Below, piece by piece: positions 23,060 to 33,132 of a stretch of 64,000 bases of DNA. Every line of letters begins with the position of its first letter. Within the stretch, counting starts at the first letter, position 1. The notes under the pieces were generated by a model. It saw only the letters and a program-made list of their open reading frames with translations, made no database searches and was not told the origin of the DNA. The position numbers were made by a program, and so were the translations under genes. Source of the DNA: Rhodothermales bacterium (GTDB taxonomy: Bacteria > Bacteroidota > Rhodothermia > Rhodothermales > Bin80). The stretch spans positions 445,246-509,245 of the forward strand of contig CATQHT010000003.1 in NCBI GenBank assembly GCA_958296045.1, written 5' to 3'.

Positions 23060-23376
23060 TAAGACATCATACCTCTTTCCCCGAGGTCTCCCGGCTTCTT
23101 GAATGTGCTGTTGCAGCCACGGATCCTGCGATAGCCGACATCAGGCTACTGCTGAGCTTGATGCCAGAATGAACCTTGAGTTCTCTCATGCAGCATCGCG
23201 AAAGGTAACCGTCCCTTAGACTGCATTTAATGCGGACGATGTGCATGGCCTACGTTTAGCGCACTCTACGGGACGGTTACCCTTCAAGAAGCCAACTACT
23301 ATGAAGTTCAGATAGATGTCCGCCTTGGTGACACGATCACGCTATTCACACAGATCGAGCAAAAGTCGCGTGAAAA
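23060..23376. other. Intergenic between lptC and the accessory island
   Basis: No gene is seen. It contains the miniature IS66-ended element described separately at 23205-23280, and marks the junction of the housekeeping block with the accessory island. Confidence 0.5.
23205..23280. repeat. Miniature element with IS66-type terminal inverted repeats
   Basis: The 76-bp segment begins GTAACCGTCCCTTAGACTGC and ends CTACGGGACGGTTAC, the same termini as the IS66 element at 37690-43163 (ends GTAAGCGTCCCGTAGACAGC and its inverse). The flanking 8 bp do not match (CGCGAAAG left, CCTTCAAG right), so no target duplication remains. It is a MITE-like or deletion derivative. Confidence 0.75.
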
Positions 23377-26300
23377 TCAGGATTCCGTGGCCAGGATGCC
23401 CATCCAGACGACGAGATTCACTTCGTCCTCCTCGATGGGATCGAGCGGCTCGGGCGCCTGCCAAGGTTGTAGTCCGAGTTCATTCACGACGTCGGCGACT
23501 ATGCGTGTCTGTTCTCCAGGGGCGATGCGGTCGGGAGTGAACACCTCTCTGAGCCGCCGCTCTTGCCGGATGCCCCACGGTGCTTCGAGAGCGTCTGCCA
23601 CCCGATCCCTTTCTTCGATCGACAGCCCGTCTGCGGGGTGCATGCGGACATGGTCAGCGGCGGCCCGAAAGAGCGGACGGACACTGGGCTGGACTGTGGC
23701 CGGATCCGTAGCGCGCATCCATTCCTCGTAGATGTCGCGGCGGGCGCGCTCCCAGGCCCCGAAGGCTCTATCCACATACACCTCTGGCAAGGCACGCTCG
23801 GTGTGCTCGGTGCATGACAGGATCCCGAGGCATGTAAGGCTATCGCGCACAATCTCCGCGCCACGATCTAATGGCACAAACCGCATGAATACACGGTCGA
23901 ATACGCGGGCACAGAAGACATGACCGGTTCGGGTTGCTCCGACGAACCCAGATCCGACACCCCACGCGAGGGTTTGGATCCGGTCTCCCCAGCGTTCGAT
24001 CCCCTTCCGTAGCTCTTGCCGGTACTCCTCGCCGCTGTGCGCGTGCACACCTTCGCCTCCCCGCTCGAAAAGGGATGGATCACCCTTTCGGAGCGCCTCG
24101 ATTTGCTTCCGGTCGTCCGCGAATACGTGTTCCGTCTGGGCCGTGCCCGGAATGACGGTCTGATCGAGCCCAATGGAAGCCGCCGCTTGGGCCAGCTTCC
24201 GGCGGATCCGCTCTTCGAGGGCGAGAAGGGCCTCGAGTTGGCGATCGGGAAACACGCACACGAGAAACACTTTCTCGTGGGGACTCCCGATGCGGTCGAT
24301 GCGCCCATGGCGCTGCACGAGCCGCATCGGGTTCCAGGGCAGATCGTAGTTGATGATCCGTCCGCACTGTTGAAGGTTCATACCCTCGGCCAGAACATCG
24401 GTTGTTACTAGGATGTCAAATTTATCATCGCTAAGTGCTGGCGGGGCCTCCGTAGATTTGGGCGCGAAGCCGAATACAGCGTTCCTTCGGGTGATTCCCT
24501 CGAACGATTCGGTCCCCTTTACGACGGCGATGCGGTCCCGGTAGCAGGCGAGCCGCCGATCCACATTCACTACATTCAGCAATCTCTCGGCGATCCACTT
24601 AACAGTATCGCCGAAGTAGGAGAACACAAGCACTTTGCGCCGATTGCGGATGTCGCGATCCGAGATGCCCTCCCGCTCGGCTTCTGCCGCGATGCGGGCG
24701 AGTTCCTCGACGAGAAGCTTGAGCTTGGGGTCGTTCTCCGCCCTTATCTCGGACGCGCGGACATGGAGCCGTTCAAGGAGCACCCTGTCCGAATTCACGT
24801 CCTCAATGAGCTTACCGGTGTCAAGGTCGTCCATTACCGGCTCGCCTTCGCGGAGAAGCTCCTTCCACGCCTCATCGGAATCGGTGTCGCGGAGCGCGGA
24901 CAGCGAATCGGAGGACTGAATCTTACCCTCAGCGACTGCGCCTACGAATTGGTCGTGGGCGGTGATCATTCTGCGCACGGTCTGCGCGAACGCATGTGCC
25001 GACGACTCGAAGCGCTTAAGCAACCCCGAGCGAATGAGACCTACCAGCGCGGATTCGCGAGCGTCAGGGGTGCCCCCTAGGCGATACCGGGTCGGCCAAT
25101 ACCGGGCCATCGTGAGTCTGGATGTGCCTTTCCCGGAGGTCAAGACCTTCGCGAACTCGTCAAAGAACCCGGGAAGCACTTCGTCCATATCATAGCTTAT
25201 GGAGCGGACCACCGGGTCTGGAAACCGGATCAACACTTCGGTTCCGTCCTTGAGGTGGAAGTTGTCGTTCGGGTAGAAGCGCTGAACGAAGTGCCGCGTC
25301 CTTCGCACCGTAGTCGCGTCGAGAATATCGAACAGCGCATCTGGGCTCAGCGAGAAGGGATCTTCCTTGTCGGTCTGCCGGAACCGTTCCCTGAGCGAGG
25401 GGATGCCGCGATCCGCGAATACCGCGTCGTGCCCGACGAAATAGGTGAGGAGGTCGTACAGGTCCCACAGCGAGTTGTTAACCGGTGTCGCGGTGAGAAA
25501 GACGACCTTCCGGGGCGGGTCGCCGCGCAGTAGTTGTCGGAGTGCGCGCGCTCGTTTCGTGTTCGCGTTGCGAAAGGCGTGTGCCTCGTCGACCACCACA
25601 AGCGAGTAGGCGTCAATACAGGAGCCTAGGGCGCTCCCGTCACCTTGACCCAGCTGCCGGTCGCCCGCCAGCTGCTCAAACGATAACACCTCGATGCCGA
25701 CCTGGTAGCGCTTTCTGAATTGCTCCCACATGCCGTCCCTAAGTTGGGCGGGGGCAATGAGGAGCGCCCGCTGGCGGTTTCGCTCGATGACCTCTGTAAA
25801 GATCTCGGCCGCGATGAAGCTCTTACCGAGACCCACGCTGTCGGCAACCAAAACGCCGTTGTACTGGTCGAGGATACGTTTCGCCCGGAACACGCCGTCG
25901 GTCTGAAACCGCGTGAGCCCGATTCTGTCCGATTCCCCAGCCTCCTCCTCAAGTTCGTCGCCGTATCGCTCCCACAGGGCGCGCAGGTAGACCAGGTAGG
26001 GAGGGTGCTCGGCGAACTGTTCCCTATAGATCGTGGCGAGATCGTAGGGACGGGCGTTCGCCCAAAGCCGGTCGAACCACTCCTCAACCCGTTCGACGAC
26101 ACCAGGCTGGTACTGGCCGAGATTGAGTTCGAGGTTTGACGTCAGTCCAGCGAGTGTGAAGTTCGACGACCCGGCCAGAACCCCATGCTCGCGAGAGAAC
26201 AGGAAGGCTTTGCCGTGGAGGAAGCGGCGCTCGTAGCGGCGGACTTCGATCTTACCGGAGTCTAGAAAGTCCAAGAATTCGCGCACCGAGGTACGATTCT

Positions 26301-26685
26301 GCTCGGAGAACGGGAGGCGGTTGCGGTCCCGGCTGAGCTTGTGCTCCGCGCGGTCGAGTTCCTCCTTCGCGAGGCTCTTCTCGTAGCGCTCGCCGCGGGG
26401 TTCACCGAGGCGGCGTTCCGGCAGCCGGGCGGCGGGAAGCGGCTCGGCACCCAGCAGGAGGCGGACGCCCGAGGTGCGGCGCAGCACATCAGCCAGCCGA
26501 CCGAAACCCCCAAGGTTGAAGTAGCCCGTGGCGATGGACACCGAGGGCGGTTCGATGAGCGTCTTGAGCAGGTATTCGAGGCGTGCCCGCAGCGCCCGAT
26601 CCAGCGTATTGCCGTCGAAATTGTCTACGAACTCCGGGGCACGATACGATCCGCTCTCTAGTTTACTCACAGCGAACCCTGCCAA
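23377..26685 (-). CDS. PLD-domain SNF2-type helicase, putative defence/restriction translocase
   Basis: The 1102-residue protein has an N-terminal phospholipase-D-like domain (about 20-215) with HGKAFLF at 157-163 and AGSSNFT at 171-177, the two halves of an HKD-like site lacking the aspartate. The helicase core follows: ADSVGLGKSF (Walker A, about 281-290), VVVDEAHAF (366-369 DEAH), FLTATPVNN (motif III), and in the second lobe KVLVFSYFGDTV, LVTTDVLAEGMNLQ and QRHGRIDRIGSP (motif VI). Such proteins translocate on DNA. It overlaps the methylase gene by 19 bp, so the two form one functional unit. It resembles DrmD-like helicases of DISARM and stand-alone PLD helicases of restriction systems (family knowledge); exact assignment is open. 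Confidence 0.85.
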   Translation of the reverse strand: MAGFAVSKLESGSYRAPEFVDNFDGNTLDRALRARLEYLLKTLIEPPSVSIATGYFNLGGFGRLADVLRRTSGVRLLLGAEPLPAARLPERRLGEPRGERYEKSLAKEELDRAEHKLSRDRNRLPFSEQNRTSVREFLDFLDSGKIEVRRYERRFLHGKAFLFSREHGVLAGSSNFTLAGLTSNLELNLGQYQPGVVERVEEWFDRLWANARPYDLATIYREQFAEHPPYLVYLRALWERYGDELEEEAGESDRIGLTRFQTDGVFRAKRILDQYNGVLVADSVGLGKSFIAAEIFTEVIERNRQRALLIAPAQLRDGMWEQFRKRYQVGIEVLSFEQLAGDRQLGQGDGSALGSCIDAYSLVVVDEAHAFRNANTKRARALRQLLRGDPPRKVVFLTATPVNNSLWDLYDLLTYFVGHDAVFADRGIPSLRERFRQTDKEDPFSLSPDALFDILDATTVRRTRHFVQRFYPNDNFHLKDGTEVLIRFPDPVVRSISYDMDEVLPGFFDEFAKVLTSGKGTSRLTMARYWPTRYRLGGTPDARESALVGLIRSGLLKRFESSAHAFAQTVRRMITAHDQFVGAVAEGKIQSSDSLSALRDTDSDEAWKELLREGEPVMDDLDTGKLIEDVNSDRVLLERLHVRASEIRAENDPKLKLLVEELARIAAEAEREGISDRDIRNRRKVLVFSYFGDTVKWIAERLLNVVNVDRRLACYRDRIAVVKGTESFEGITRRNAVFGFAPKSTEAPPALSDDKFDILVTTDVLAEGMNLQQCGRIINYDLPWNPMRLVQRHGRIDRIGSPHEKVFLVCVFPDRQLEALLALEERIRRKLAQAAASIGLDQTVIPGTAQTEHVFADDRKQIEALRKGDPSLFERGGEGVHAHSGEEYRQELRKGIERWGDRIQTLAWGVGSGFVGATRTGHVFCARVFDRVFMRFVPLDRGAEIVRDSLTCLGILSCTEHTERALPEVYVDRAFGAWERARRDIYEEWMRATDPATVQPSVRPLFRAAADHVRMHPADGLSIEERDRVADALEAPWGIRQERRLREVFTPDRIAPGEQTRIVADVVNELGLQPWQAPEPLDPIEEDEVNLVVWMGILATES

Positions 26686-29600
26686 GCCCGAAAGTGCTTC
26701 AGCGTAGCGCGAAGCAACTCCTCGTGGTCCCAGGCTTCGTGAAATGTCTCAAAGATGTGGGCGAGTTGCATCTCCGAGAGACCATAGAGATGAGCCACCA
26801 CAGCGTCGAGTTCCTGGATGTGATCGTGCTTTTCATCTGTGTCCATTGGCCCACACGCGACACCAACTCTTCCAGCCCAATCAGCGAAACGGTCGTCTGG
26901 GGATGCAAGCCGCCCCGCTAATGCGATGACACGTCGTCGTAGTTGGCTTTCTTTGGGGGGCCGTGGAACCGGAAAAGGATTTACGATGAAGAAGCTGACA
27001 TGCAGCACAACAAACAGACGTGCGTACCAATCCAGAGGGAGGGAACTCATCACTCCGATAAGGAACGCTTCATCCTCTTCGTCACAGCACGGCCATAGAA
27101 TGTAGGGAGCTGTGTTGGTCAGGAATACCCGTGGTGGCACGAGAGCGGCGATGATCGTGCGGCGGGCCGTTCGGCTTGTGACGTCCCGGAATGCAATTCG
27201 CGGGCGCAGACACGGGAGAGTTTCCGGGTCCTCACGCCAGCCCTTCTCGAACTCCGCGAATGCTGAGCGCCTGTTCGCTCGCATCCGCTTGCCCTGAAGA
27301 TGGCGGAGCATCAGTACGGGGTTCGCCCACGCGTAGTAGGTCCCCCTATCCGGCGTCCACAGGTCGAATGACGCTCCCTTATAGACTGGCCAGAAGCCGT
27401 CAGGACACGCCTGCGACTCGACATCCATCACATGCTTTTCGTTCGTAGCATCCAGCTCCCGCTGCGGCCGCGCCCGCCAACTCACTCCGTCGTTGAAATC
27501 CAGTCGAGGGCTTCTGCGCAGCTGCGCGAACACCTCCACCGACTCGTCGGATGGCAGGAGTGGTAGCGAGGCCGTGTGGTTCCACGCCTCGACCTCGCGG
27601 GCGCGGAATGTCACTGGGGAGCGCCGAACACCGGTGCGAAACCGCTGAAGGTTGGCGTACGGCCCGCTCAACCGTATCTCGGACTCGCAGTTACCCGTCC
27701 CGCGGGTGATAGCGGTCAGACCTATGGTGTACTCTGGATGGACATTCGGAAATACCCACTTTCGGTTGTTTACCAGCATCGTTACGTCCAGCACTTCGGC
27801 GCTCGCCAGCAACTCCTTGCGGAATGCGGTGGATCCCTTGGCTGCCAGCGCCGAGCGGGGCAACACGACGCCGATCCGCCCACCTTCCAGTGACACAAGG
27901 TTCCAGAACCGCCAGACGAACGCCTTATAGAGGTCGGGGTCGCCGGTGCCCATGCCGGGGAACGCGCCCGCAGTCAGGAGGCGGCGAAGCGAGGTCTTAG
28001 ATGCTGTTTCTGCTTTGTGGCGGGCCACGAGGTCCGGCCGCTCCTTTCTATACCGGGCCTTGAGCGCCTCCTGCTCTCGCTGCGGGCGCGACTGCAGCCC
28101 CGGGAAATGCCGCGCCCAGAAGGCATCTTCCTCGACTGTGGCCTCCTCCCAGGGTGGATTGCCGAGGATCACGTCGAACCCGCTGCGTATACTAAGGAAA
28201 ACGTGGGGGAAAGCGAGCGGGAAGTGTAAGATGTCCAGTCCCTTGAATTCCTCGCGCGCCTTGGCAAACAGCTGTGATAGGTAGATGTCGCCCGGATCGT
28301 CCACAGGCGGTGCCACCTGTCCGCCAGTGATTGCTTCGCGGATGCCGCTGTTTGTGCGCGAGGCCGCCAGTAACGTGAAGAGGTCCTGTTCCGAACGAAT
28401 GGCCTGCCGCATCTGGGCGTAGAGTTCCCGTGCCTCTCGGATCTCCGCGTCGTTCGCGTCCGTTAGTTTGCCAAGTTTCTCAACAGGCTCACGGACGGCT
28501 TCTAGACGCTCCCTCGCAATTAGTGAGAAAAGGTTGCCCTCGGCTTGAAACAGTTCGGACGCCTCCTCGAACGATGCGATTCCGACTAGCGAGTTGCCTT
28601 GGATCAGGTTGTGGTCGAGGAGCGAGAGCGGTAGCCCCGGCACGAAGGTATGGATCCACAGTGACAGTCGCGCCAGTTCGACGGCCATCGGATTCACGTC
28701 CACGCCGAAGATGCACCGCCGGGCCACCTGCCTGCGCAGTAGCTGAATGTCCTCGATCAGGTCACCGGACCAGTCCTCCCCAAGCTGCTCCCTAGCAGTT
28801 TGGCGAAGCCGTACGAACTCCTCTCGCACGTCAGGCAGAGGCCGGTCAGCTAGGTAGTTGGTAAGACGACGTTCGATCCGGTCCACCGCTCCGACCAGGA
28901 AATGGCCGGAACCCATCGCGATGTCGGCGACCCGGAATTTGAAGAACCGCCTTCCTGCTTCCCGGTCCGACATTTCGTCGAGTCGCTTCAAGTGCGCGTC
29001 GAGCGCCGGCTCGAGTGCCCGGTCAAGGAGATGTTCGACGGCAAAAGGCGGAGTGTAGTAGGATCCACTGGACTTTCGCGCTCCAGAGCGGTTGTGGAGA
29101 TAAACCTTACCCGCGCGCACCTCAGCCGTGTCGCCGGGTTGGGCCGGGAGGTAGGCCTTAGTCTTGGCGTCCACAGCTAAGTCCGTCTCTGCCAGCGAGA
29201 GCTCGCTCTCTAGCAGACCCTCGTAGATCGTCCCGAATTCCCGGATACCGAGGGACCGGAAGTCGACGGGGCCCTCGTTCTCCTCCGCCGTCCGGTCGAG
29301 GAGTAGTGCGGCCAGCGCCTGCGCGAATTCGCGGTCTGGGAGAGAGAAGGCCGCGATTCGAGCCCCGAGCTCCGAGAGCGAAGCTTCGGAGGCAAATAGC
29401 GTACCATTGTACGCTGGCACGCCCCATTCCGGGTTTCCGAGGCTCACCGCCGTCCAGATCTGCGTGACCTCGGACCAGAAGGAGGGCTGTTCTCCGAACT
29501 CGATGCCTTTGCGTCGGGCTTTGGCGAGACGCTGGGCGATCCGCTTGAGCGAGTGGTCCCGGTAGCTTTGCGAGGCGTTCAAGGGAAGCAGGTCACGATC

Positions 29601-30689
29601 CTCGGCGTATGCCACAAATAGCAGCCGATAGAGAATCCGAAGCGTCACTTGGTAGGTCTGTAGGAGATCGTCCGCAGTCGGATTCTGCGAATTCATCGCT
29701 GCCACGACTGCGCGGGCGAGCCACGGCATAACTTCGCGATAGACCCGCTCCCGCAAACGACCGCCGAGATCCGCAGCGTAGTCCTCGCTCGCTCGGAGGA
29801 TGTCCTCGACGCTCCCGCTCTCCGAAAGCGCTGGTGCGGACAGTAGGAGCCAGAGATATCCCGCGTTATCCCCGGAAAGGAGGTCGAGGTTGATCTCGAC
29901 GTATGTCTCTGACCGTCCTCGGCGACCCGTGCCGACGCCCAGCTTGGCAGGGTAAAGACGGAGGGTGGCGTCCGCAACTGCGACCACCCAGTTCAAGTTC
30001 TCCCGGTCGGCTCGGGCCAATGCATAGGACACTGGAGACACGTTGTCGAATCGCGGGCTGGCGGAGTCGATCTCATCGGGCCAGTCCAATAGGACAGCAA
30101 CCGCCGTCTTGCGGTCTCTAGCAAGGAGCAATATCGCCGGTCCAGGTAGTTCCTCTGTCGCAAATCCGAGCCCCCGGATCAGCGCACGTTCCCGAAGTGT
30201 CCGCACCCTGCGCGCCTTCTGGACCGCGAGCCCCCAGTCTTCCCGCGCTGGGACTCCGCGCTCAAGCTCTTGCATTGCGAAGAGACCACCGTTGCGGAGG
30301 CCGGGGACCGGTGCGCCCAGTTGCGGCAGAAGCCGACGAAGAAGCCGGATTGCCGTGTGTCTTCCATCCGCCCCTAGCGCCTTGCCGCACACAGCCTTGA
30401 CTTGCTCCAAGGGAAGATTCTCTTGCTGGATACGGGGGGTACGGGTGATACGGGTGTGATCCGTGAGGCCGCACACCGCCGCTCGCCGCCCGCCCCAGGG
30501 CGCCACGATCAGGACGGGAGCGGCGCGGCCCCCAGCCCGAGTCTGGAACAGCGCCTTGAGGCCCGCTATCCGGGGTGGCTCATCCATCGCAACCACGATG
30601 ATTTCGAGGGCAAGTGAGCCATTCCCGAGATAAAGCTTAGCGCGGCGCTCTCCGATGGAGATGTCCCGGGGTTCAAGGTGGTCGAACAT
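26667..30689 (-). CDS. Eco57I/type IIG-like N6-adenine DNA methyltransferase, large
   Basis: The protein has 1340 residues from the ATG at 30689; the frame extends to an ATG at 30761. A helical N-terminal region (about 1-510) of unknown role precedes SGSYYTPPFAVEHLLDRAL. AdoMet motif I is VADIAMGSGHFLVGA (about 589), and the catalytic motif IV is VILGNPPWEEAT (about 843). A C-terminal target-recognition-like region (about 1080-1330) contains FWPVYKGASFDLWTP and PRIAFRDVTSRTA, typical of Eco57I-type enzymes. No PD-(D/E)XK nuclease motif is obvious, so cleavage may depend on the adjacent PLD-helicase. It probably modifies host DNA for self-recognition. Confidence 0.87.
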   Translation of the reverse strand: MFDHLEPRDISIGERRAKLYLGNGSLALEIIVVAMDEPPRIAGLKALFQTRAGGRAAPVLIVAPWGGRRAAVCGLTDHTRITRTPRIQQENLPLEQVKAVCGKALGADGRHTAIRLLRRLLPQLGAPVPGLRNGGLFAMQELERGVPAREDWGLAVQKARRVRTLRERALIRGLGFATEELPGPAILLLARDRKTAVAVLLDWPDEIDSASPRFDNVSPVSYALARADRENLNWVVAVADATLRLYPAKLGVGTGRRGRSETYVEINLDLLSGDNAGYLWLLLSAPALSESGSVEDILRASEDYAADLGGRLRERVYREVMPWLARAVVAAMNSQNPTADDLLQTYQVTLRILYRLLFVAYAEDRDLLPLNASQSYRDHSLKRIAQRLAKARRKGIEFGEQPSFWSEVTQIWTAVSLGNPEWGVPAYNGTLFASEASLSELGARIAAFSLPDREFAQALAALLLDRTAEENEGPVDFRSLGIREFGTIYEGLLESELSLAETDLAVDAKTKAYLPAQPGDTAEVRAGKVYLHNRSGARKSSGSYYTPPFAVEHLLDRALEPALDAHLKRLDEMSDREAGRRFFKFRVADIAMGSGHFLVGAVDRIERRLTNYLADRPLPDVREEFVRLRQTAREQLGEDWSGDLIEDIQLLRRQVARRCIFGVDVNPMAVELARLSLWIHTFVPGLPLSLLDHNLIQGNSLVGIASFEEASELFQAEGNLFSLIARERLEAVREPVEKLGKLTDANDAEIREARELYAQMRQAIRSEQDLFTLLAASRTNSGIREAITGGQVAPPVDDPGDIYLSQLFAKAREEFKGLDILHFPLAFPHVFLSIRSGFDVILGNPPWEEATVEEDAFWARHFPGLQSRPQREQEALKARYRKERPDLVARHKAETASKTSLRRLLTAGAFPGMGTGDPDLYKAFVWRFWNLVSLEGGRIGVVLPRSALAAKGSTAFRKELLASAEVLDVTMLVNNRKWVFPNVHPEYTIGLTAITRGTGNCESEIRLSGPYANLQRFRTGVRRSPVTFRAREVEAWNHTASLPLLPSDESVEVFAQLRRSPRLDFNDGVSWRARPQRELDATNEKHVMDVESQACPDGFWPVYKGASFDLWTPDRGTYYAWANPVLMLRHLQGKRMRANRRSAFAEFEKGWREDPETLPCLRPRIAFRDVTSRTARRTIIAALVPPRVFLTNTAPYILWPCCDEEDEAFLIGVMSSLPLDWYARLFVVLHVSFFIVNPFPVPRPPKESQLRRRVIALAGRLASPDDRFADWAGRVGVACGPMDTDEKHDHIQELDAVVAHLYGLSEMQLAHIFETFHEAWDHEELLRATLKHFRAWQGSL

Positions 30690-30941
30690 CAGAGAATTGC
30701 GGTTTCGTCTATGGTTGACGGATGCGTATACGTCACCTACTTGTTCGAGATGGTCGAGCATGAGAGAGTTGCAGCTCTAGGAGTCTGCACCGCAGAAAAA
30801 CTACAGTTCGAGCATTTCCGTTGCTGACCAGCATGGCACGGAAATGGTACCGGAATGGTACGGGTATAGCAACGAACGGGTCTATTTTCGTCAAACCTTC
30901 TGTTGTTTGTAGTAGAATATAGCTACCATATCCTATATTAA
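30690..30941. other. Leader of the methylase gene, duplicated start region
   Basis: Two related segments about 72 bp apart carry ATG-CTCGACCATCTCGAA and ATG-TTCGACCACCTTGAA on the minus strand. The upstream copy at about 30761 thus mimics the start at 30689. No other gene is seen before the IS1182-type transposase. Confidence 0.5.
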
Positions 30942-32609
30942 TCATGTAAGTAATAGATTCATCGAATCTAAACGCTTCAGATCGAGGCAAAAGCAGACCA
31001 AGTTCCATTCGCCGCTGACCTTCGTCTGGCCACGGACACTGAATCGGCGAAAGCCGAGAACGTCCTTGATCCACCCGTTGGCGGCCTCCGAGAGCCACTT
31101 GCGCTGCGCGTAAATCGCCCGCCGTTAGGGGTGGCCAGCTTCGCCTGCATCTGGGCCGTCAGCGGACGAGTCTCTGGGTTAAAGGACATGGCTTTGCGTC
31201 CCTCACGCCCCAATGATTCGTATCCGTCCACACCGCGCGACGCTAAACCAGCAAGATTGGCCTCGCTGCAATAGCCCGCGTCTACCAACACCTTATCGGG
31301 CTGCTGACCATAGGTCTCCTTTACCGCTGGCACCATCGGCAACAATTTGTTCTGATCCGCGGCTTGGTTTGTCACGCATGTCTCCACGTTTTGCTGATGC
31401 TCAGACTCCACACCCGTCTGTGCGTTGTACGCTTGTTGGAAGCCATGTTGGCTCGTCTTCATGATGCGGCTCTCGGGGTCGGTGAAGTTGCATTGTGCCT
31501 TGTCTTTCGGCACCCCGAAGGGACGCTTATAAGCCAGGCCACCCCGTGGATTGCGCTTCTGGCCGGGCTTGCGCCCAGTCGCCGCGTCCGCTGCACGCTG
31601 CCTAGCTTCCAACGCCGCCTTTCCCTCCCCCAATGATCTTGAGCTTTTTCTGGCGCCGGGCTATCTCCGCGTCTATGCTGCTGCCTTCTGGAACATCCAC
31701 CGCCGATGGCAGAGCAGACTTCGGATCCTTCGGACGGTCCTCATCCCCAGCGGCAGCCAAACCATCACCGCGGACACCCGCTGCCTCCAGGGCCGGATCT
31801 GATGTGTGATCGGCAACATTTGGGAGTTCTTTGCCCGAGAGGGTCCCCGACGTGTTAGCTGTGGCCGCGTCAGCTTCAGTTGTAGCGGCAGAACGGCCCA
31901 CCGGACGCTCGGCTGGTGCACTGGATCGCAAATCCGACGGACTAGACGCATCCGCAGAATGACTGCCCGACTGCTTCTGGGCAGACTCCATCGCCTTGGC
32001 CTTAGCAGACTTGTGCTCGCGCTGGAGCGCCTCAAGCTGCTGTTCCGCTTCATCCCAAGCCTTCTGTCGACCGCTTTGAGTAGCCACGGCCAGCGGCAAT
32101 GCAACGTCGCTACCCTCCTTCCCGAAGCGCGCATCCTCCTCTGCATCGGTACGCTTCGAATGCGCCAGTAATTCATCTATCTCCCCCTGAAGGCGCGCCG
32201 ACTCCTTAACCATGCGATCGTAACTCATCGCCCTGCGCTTACTCGCATTCGCTTCCACCTTCGTGCCATCTATCGACACCTTGCCCAGCTTTGTCAACCC
32301 CGCCGCACGACCCACCATCACAAGCTCAACGAACAACTTCCGACAATCCTGCAGGTGGTGCTGACGAAACGCACAGATCGTCTGGTGATTCGGACGATAG
32401 CCCGCTGCCAATACCCGAAACGCTACATCGGTCTCCAGACGGGCAGCAATCTTGCGGGACGAAAATACCCCGACCATATAAGCATAAATCAGCACCTTCA
32501 ACATCATCGCCGGATGGCACGGCCGATTACGGCGACCATCACCGTCGTGGGGAGTGTAAAACGTACTCAAGTCCAGCCGATCCACGAAATCCGATACATA
32601 GTATACCAA
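30942..32609 (-). pseudogene. IS1182-type DDE transposase, frameshifted
   Basis: The N-terminal two-thirds lie in 31602-32609 (MVYYVSDFVDRLDLSTFY, CHPAMMLKVLIYAYMVG, GKVSIDGTKVEANASKRR with the first DDE aspartate). The frame breaks at a run of five G on the coding strand (about 31625), continuing one frame over as EGKAALEARQRAADAATGRK through KVLVDAGYCSEANL. A second break near 31128 shifts it to IYAQRKWLSEAANGWIKDVL and GFRRFSVRGQTKVSGEWNLV, ending at 30942. The order and motifs are those of IS1182-family transposases. A low-complexity Ser/Asp/Ala insert sits at about residues 215-300. Two frameshifts make activity unlikely, although the first could be a programmed slip. Terminal repeats were not found. 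Confidence 0.8.
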
Positions 32610-33059
32610 GTGATCCTCCAGAAGCTACTCCCGGATCGATCCAGGAACCATGCGCGGAACATTCGGCAGGTAATCGCGAAACGTCGTTCCAATCGGTAAT
32701 GCAGCGATAGCGAGCAGTAGCGTACATCTCCAAAATACGAAATTAATGGAACAAACGGACATCACAGCGCTAAGGTCGCCGATATAGGCGCAAGCCGCCT
32801 ACCGTCACCCCTGAGCGTTTCTGCGGCGATGACTCCTAGGGTACCCTTGAGTTAATGAAGGAGTCTAAGCATGCGCACACCCACGGTGACGACCTTAAGC
32901 GCACGACTTGGTACGGAAACGTAGAATGAGCGCACGCGCTCACCGGAAGAACAACCAATACCCTCAACAGGGCGAATCGGCGATACTTTTACTCCCGTAC
33001 AGCCAGCAGATACCAGCGGCCATACCCTCAAAATACGCGACGCCGCTAGCGGATTGATG
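32610..33059. other. Intergenic, 450 bp, no gene recognised
   Basis: A tiny frame at about 32871 (ATG after TGAAGGAGTC) encodes 17 residues with a good RBS but no known family. Nothing else can be supported. Confidence 0.35.
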
Positions 33060-33132
33060 AGCGGGAAACGAGACTCGAACTCGCGGCCTTCTGCATGGCA
33101 AGCAGATGCTCTACCAACTGAGCTATTCCCGC
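33060..33132 (-). tRNA. tRNA-Gly (anticodon GCC)
   Basis: The cloverleaf is complete: acceptor GCGGGAA/TTCCCGC, D arm GCTCAGTTGGTAGAGC, anticodon stem TCTGC/GCAGA with loop TTGCCAT (anticodon GCC), T arm GCGAG-TTCGAGT-CTCGT, discriminator T. It lies 53 bp downstream of asd on the same strand. Confidence 0.97.

Follow-up and report, generated by a model that had tools for sequence, protein, structure and literature searches.

A two-gene operon of a PLD-Snf2 helicase and an Eco57I-type methylase in a Rhodothermales genome, a candidate ATP-dependent restriction-modification system

A two-gene restriction-modification candidate

The window analyzed here is a stretch of 64,000 nucleotides of contig CATQHT010000003.1 (positions 445,246 to 509,245) from a Rhodothermales bacterium (GCA_958296045.1). 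It carries, on the minus strand, a gene for an Eco57I-type N6-adenine DNA methyltransferase followed by a gene for a helicase in which a PLD-like nuclease domain is fused to an Snf2 motor. Our proposal is that the two genes make up an ATP-dependent restriction-modification system, with specificity provided by the methylase and cleavage by the PLD-helicase, and we assign this reading a probability of about 0.72. On the sequence evidence, a role in modification-guided defence is very likely. The pair is better termed a variant of ATP-dependent restriction-modification than a new principle.

26667..30689, minus strand: Eco57I-type N6-adenine DNA methyltransferase gene, 1340 residues, ATG start from alignment A2; modification and proposed specificity subunit
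23377..26670, minus strand: PLD-Snf2 helicase gene, 1097 residues, GTG start, assigned by Pfam PLDc_2, SNF2-rel_dom and Helicase_C over cut-off and by alignment A1; proposed motor and nuclease

Both open reading frames (ORFs) named in a preliminary description of this DNA lie where it placed them, the program listing them on the minus strand at 23377..26685 (helicase) and 26667..30761 (methylase). Aligned relatives set the starts at a GTG (26670) and an ATG (30689). The 19-bp overlap first reported depends on an upstream TTG start, and with the starts of the relatives the helicase GTG overlaps the methylase stop by 4 bp (GTGA, 26670-26667). A comparable short overlap of the two genes is found in several Gemmatimonadota and plasmid copies.

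Distribution of the pair

The methylase-helicase pair is a real, well-delimited and widespread unit. It was found in dozens of genomes across phyla, in bacteria and some archaea, so its recurrence goes beyond chance, and the unit is not confined to one locus. Among 249 genomes of the Gemmatimonadota, the phylum of the metagenome-assembled genome (MAG) G300, helicase and methylase are each present in 20; they occur together in 19 of the 21 genomes with either gene (Fisher p 3e-26), nearly always adjacent and on one strand. In the phylum of the window (297 genomes), helicase and methylase orthologs are found in the identical four genomes. Searches of plasmids with either query led to a single set of six records with full-length relatives, of which two are archaeal; the helicases among them are 37-49% identical. 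Culturable carriers include Halorubrum lacusprofundi ATCC 49239 (pHLAC01) and Rhodococcus erythropolis R138. The pairwise distances of the two proteins are also correlated (Mantel r 0.83, 0 of 5000 permutations).

No third core gene accompanies them. Clustering of neighbours over 28 loci placed the helicase in 28 and the methylase in 27, while the next commonest gene family was present in 3. The genes lying between methylase and helicase in planctomycetes and in the family of the window vary (Schlafen-AlbA, HerA, ImmA/IrrE, NACHT). Complete pairs were also seen on three contigs classed as viral (L074, L075 and L076); L076 sits on a zero-length branch with a chromosomal copy of Crenalkalicoccus roseus, and the viral label is thus doubtful. 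The phage records searched contained distant partial helicases only.

The PLD-Snf2 helicase

26062..26490, minus strand: PLD-like nuclease domain, residues ~61-203, with H152, K154, N170 and E181 (Pfam and alignment)
24252..25920, minus strand: Snf2/SF2 motor core, residues ~251-807, with Walker A K283, DEAH D361/E362 and motif VI R787

The helicase joins a superfamily 2 (SF2) motor to a nuclease with complete catalytic residues, as an ATP-dependent restriction-modification system demands. In the alignment H152, K154, N170 and E181 of the PLD domain are invariant in 32 of 32 family helicases, which likewise all keep Walker A, DEAH and motif VI. Comparison of the structure model places the fold nearest RapA/Snf2. 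The best PADLOC match is C3a139 (HKD+Snf2), partial and at 195 bits, and the NCBIfam model phospholipD_antiphage (NF042964) scores 144 bits, below its curated cut-off of 1100. The HxK and SSN motifs, with the Asp of the HKD motif missing, are present as first described (H157/K159 there are H152/K154 in the GTG numbering). That the missing Asp marks a dead or odd nuclease is rejected, because active PLD restriction nucleases also act without it: the site of SauUSI is HxKx4E (PMC7913695), and CglI and NgoAVII have an HxK motif whose His mutation abolishes cleavage (PMC4267653). A related PLD-Snf2 protein of the outgroup (L158:3074-13439) no longer has H, K and N in its PLD site and lies upstream of a type III Mod/Res locus; it would be a natural case of a dead PLD where another nuclease is present.

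SauUSI is the closest precedent for the architecture of the helicase. Both have, in one chain, an N-terminal PLD nuclease with HxK and an SF2 helicase-like ATPase, and SauUSI translocates with ATP (PMC7913695). This equal fusion is what would favor reading the PLD-helicase as a type IV, SauUSI-like nuclease directed against foreign modified DNA, with the methylase a separate or orphan gene that is a neighbour by chance. However, SauUSI has its own C-terminal reader domain and cuts 5-methylcytosine DNA without a partner or a cognate methylase. Here the motor is RapA/Snf2-like, Pfam detects no SRA-like or other reader domain in the helicase, which also has no hypervariable recognition block, and a methylase of the N6-methyladenine (m6A) type is a near-constant neighbour. 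Against this near-absolute co-occurrence and co-divergence with the methylase, the type IV explanation is improbable.

The methylase and target recognition

28899..28925, minus strand: SAM-binding motif DIAMGSGHF, residues 589-597 (alignment)
28149..28160, minus strand: catalytic motif NPPW, residues 844-847 (alignment)
26940..28112, minus strand: C-terminal target-recognition block, residues ~860-1250, a part swapped between other, closely related copies
29940..30689, minus strand: N-terminal alpha/beta region, residues 1-250, weakly PD-(D/E)xK-like, with no conserved D..ExK

The methylase passes the cut-off of Pfam Eco57I, at 55 bits. D589 and NPPW844-847 are invariant in 29 of 29 sequences, and a single G595A occurs in L020. 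Its S-adenosylmethionine (SAM) motif and its catalytic motif are thus intact, and it has a region for target recognition, as required of the methylase of an ATP-dependent restriction-modification system. No solved structure was matched to it by sequence.

The recognition block is swapped in the methylase in two pairs of related loci, and the helicase has no matching block. Between L028 (Crenalkalicoccus roseus) and L034 (Pseudoroseomonas cervicalis) the methylases are 81% identical over residues 1-700, 36% at 860-1250 and 86% at 1260-1315, and the helicases 81% throughout, with every 50-column bin at 63% or more. For L014 and L038 the values are 72% for the helicase, 74% for residues 1-700 of the methylase and 24% for 860-1250. 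Since the swap concerns the methylase only, we infer that recognition is a property of the methylase, which then guides the helicase.

Some points weigh against the proposed two-gene system. The best PADLOC match of the methylase is PDLC03620 REase_MTase_IIG, full length and at 967 bits, a type IIG name that implies a nuclease of its own. The genome G271 has a second full-length methylase copy (contig 120, L066:6723-13562) that has no helicase nearby; the gene immediately after it encodes a type IV restriction enzyme of the GmrSD kind. The structure model of the helicase is of moderate confidence (predicted local distance difference test, pLDDT, 73.8), and we identified no domain that mediates the interaction of helicase and methylase.

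The first of these points would fit a methylase that is a bifunctional type IIG cutter and methylator, with the PLD-helicase as an accessory motor or clearance factor. The AlphaFold model of the N-terminal part (pLDDT 82.8) contains an alpha-beta-beta-beta-alpha-beta-beta stretch that recalls PD-(D/E)xK, and Hjc and HsdR are among the weak matches that Foldseek gave. But Foldseek returned nothing at E <= 0.001 with this region (best E 0.019), and the 560 N-terminal residues contain no D..ExK conserved among 18 sequences down to 39% identity, while the PLD site is invariant. We thus detected no catalytic PD-(D/E)xK domain by alignment or by Foldseek, the PADLOC name is unsupported as far as a nuclease in the methylase is concerned, and we consider the type IIG explanation quite improbable. 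The earlier observation that the methylase has no obvious nuclease motif stands, and it leaves the PLD domain as the sole credible nuclease.

Proposed mechanism

In the two-gene restriction-modification system that we propose, the host's own target sites would be marked by the methylase. Where a target lacks the mark, the PLD-helicase would be loaded by the methylase, alone or in complex with the helicase, and may then translocate along the DNA with ATP. A PLD site built from two subunits, by analogy with BfiI and SauUSI, would cut the DNA. The methylase would thus act as the specificity subunit, like that of type I, III and ISP enzymes, and the helicase as the restriction subunit. Whether such pairs make up an unnamed and phylogenetically broad subtype, in which a stand-alone Eco57I-type methylase specifies a separate PLD-Snf2 motor, a third subunit is lacking and specificity evolves solely through exchange of the methylase C-terminal block, is a proposition to which we give about even odds.

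Comparison with known systems

CglI and NgoAVII also combine a PLD nuclease, an SF2 ATPase and a methylase in ATP-dependent cleavage, for which HxK is essential (PMC4267653); in the present pair cleavage is proposed. They have three genes, with a PLD-B3 R-protein and a separate DEAD/Z1 N-protein. Here, in contrast, PLD and the Snf2 motor form one protein, Pfam finds neither a B3 nor a Z1 domain, and the methylase is large and of the Eco57I type. The type ISP enzymes LlaGI and LlaBIII join an SF2 motor, an adenine methylase and target recognition in a restriction-modification function, as may occur here, but are single polypeptides with their own nuclease domain, whereas all complete loci have two separate genes, with PLD on the motor. 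The comparisons support the initial description of the pair as a compact two-gene unit that differs both from type ISP enzymes and from DISARM class 1.

Some features could indicate a reduced or incomplete DISARM-, BREX- or ARMADA-like system, with partners elsewhere and possibly a block of phage without cleavage. The profile comparison with DrmD and DrmMI proposed in the preliminary description revealed a distant kinship to both: the helicase scores 168.5 bits against a curated DrmD cut-off of 610, and the methylase core 226 bits to DrmMI. Restriction of the BREX type need not involve cleavage. In the type-2 BREX-related (DUF499/Hma-type) systems, an HKD nuclease is N-terminal to a Swi2/Snf2 helicase and is accompanied by an N6-methylase (PMC12839542), as in the pair. 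However, drmA, drmB and drmC are absent from the insert that holds the pair, which sets the pair apart from class 1 DISARM, and no third gene is conserved over the 28 loci, plasmids included. DUF499/Hma-type systems comprise a DUF499 ATPase, DUF3780 and a methylase with DUF1156 (PMC12839542). DUF499 is missing in 14 of 20 carrier genomes, and the remaining six have it only at a distance from the pair, on which ground membership in the DUF499/Hma type is rejected. The Pfam scan found no DUF1156 in the methylase. The 25 families listed, of 47 in the neighbour scan, do not include DUF3780. ARMADA requires the YprA helicase (PMC12458937); the insert has no gene of the YprA family. With the PLD site intact in every family member, a reduced system of this kind is as improbable as the type IV explanation. 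Three DUF499 ATPase genes are present elsewhere in the window's genome (G000:C1:972530, G000:C1:502273 and G000:C3:1436200), which suggests separate DUF499/Hma-type systems.

PADLOC C3a139 and REase_MTase_IIG are single-protein models, and the library search named no system for the pair. Nor did the search of the open-access literature find a named two-gene PLD-Snf2/Eco57I system. In three loci of the window's phylum (L154, L155 and L157) a PLD-Snf2 helicase comes first, next to a methylase of a different Eco57I-type family (PDLC03596-like in L154 and L155), and L156 has a similar helicase-first pair with a YhcG-type PDDEXK gene in between. Judged from their sequences, these appear to follow the same principle in the opposite gene order, and the operon in the window is thus a single lineage within a broader group, most of which has no name.

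Defence neighbourhood

Several defence families lie near or between the pair in relatives, none of them constant: GmrSD, Schlafen-AlbA/RecG-C, ImmA/IrrE with DUF4411, NACHT, SIR2_2, HerA, DarT, Fic and a PD-Lambda-5_A homologue. The last immediately follows the helicase gene in three loci of Gemmatimonadota (L003:13317-14759, L004:13320-14753 and L008:13286-14716; 609-624 bits in the two that were scored) and does not occur in the window. On a plasmid of Euzebya pacifica, a gene annotated as a phosphorothioated-DNA-binding restriction endonuclease (L071:12378-13226) shares 4 bp with the helicase gene at its stop, an arrangement that would suit co-transcription with the pair.

These neighbourhoods bear on the possibility that the main role of the operon is that of a selfish or regulatory epigenetic module, acting in post-segregational addiction or m6A gene regulation, with phage defence incidental. 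Patchy distribution, horizontal transfer, plasmid carriage and decayed copies (L004, L037) would fit such a module, but many other defence families adjoin the relatives. The molecular mechanism would be identical and the question is thus one of selection; we hold this to be the least probable of the alternatives. The minimal modification-guided defence with PLD cleavage suggested in the preliminary description gains from the constant pairing, the defence-rich relatives, the block replacement and the horizontal transfer, and defence itself is inferred.

Genomic context and origin

23060..33058: insert of 10.0 kb between tRNA-Gly and lptC; site empty in relatives
33059..33132, minus strand: tRNA-Gly(GCC); the insert begins at the tRNA 3' side
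30777..32839, minus strand: insertion sequence with a frameshifted DUF772 transposase and 22-nt inverted repeats, 87 bp upstream of the methylase start
23193..23292, no strand: IS66-ended miniature inverted-repeat element, downstream of the helicase

The insert contains the methylase-helicase pair, the DUF772 insertion sequence and the short IS66-ended element, and nothing else. Both mobile elements that were said to bound the pair are real. The short element has ~40-bp ends with matches at more than 20 further positions in the genome, and at one of these an IS66 C-terminal element is the neighbour. The tRNA-Gly that abuts the insert is not mentioned in the preliminary description. The five relatives examined closely have asd, tRNA-Gly(GCC), lptC, ostA and lptB in uninterrupted order, and further members of the window's family have an asd-lptB spacing of 2-3 kb. 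A search of the far side of the insert for an att-type direct repeat of 10 bp or more, derived from the tRNA 3' end, gave none. A sigma-70 promoter scan gave 0 sites and was uninformative. Misbinning of the locus is unlikely because the contig is 2.88 Mb long and has genes of the family on both flanks.

The operon was acquired horizontally, since the helicase is 81-86% identical to Gemmatimonadota copies and nested in that group with 100/100 support, whereas the copies of its own family (G215, G259 and G271) are 42-50% identical. The latter form a separate clade with Roseomonas-type sequences, and the operon was therefore acquired more than once. A broken remnant in another Rhodothermales MAG of the window's family (L037, OX638318.1), at a different chromosomal site and with a helicase 72-90% identical, points to both gain and loss of the operon.

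Implications

If the proposed reading is true, current annotation hides a whole restriction-modification subtype: on plasmids of culturable archaea and actinobacteria, the RefSeq labels are 'hypothetical protein' and 'helicase-related protein'. A metal-independent PLD nuclease would be joined with a Snf2/RapA-type motor whose specificity is set by the methylase alone, and coupling like that of types I and III would become testable with just two proteins. The members with natural replacements of the recognition block would offer a ready set for methylome mapping.

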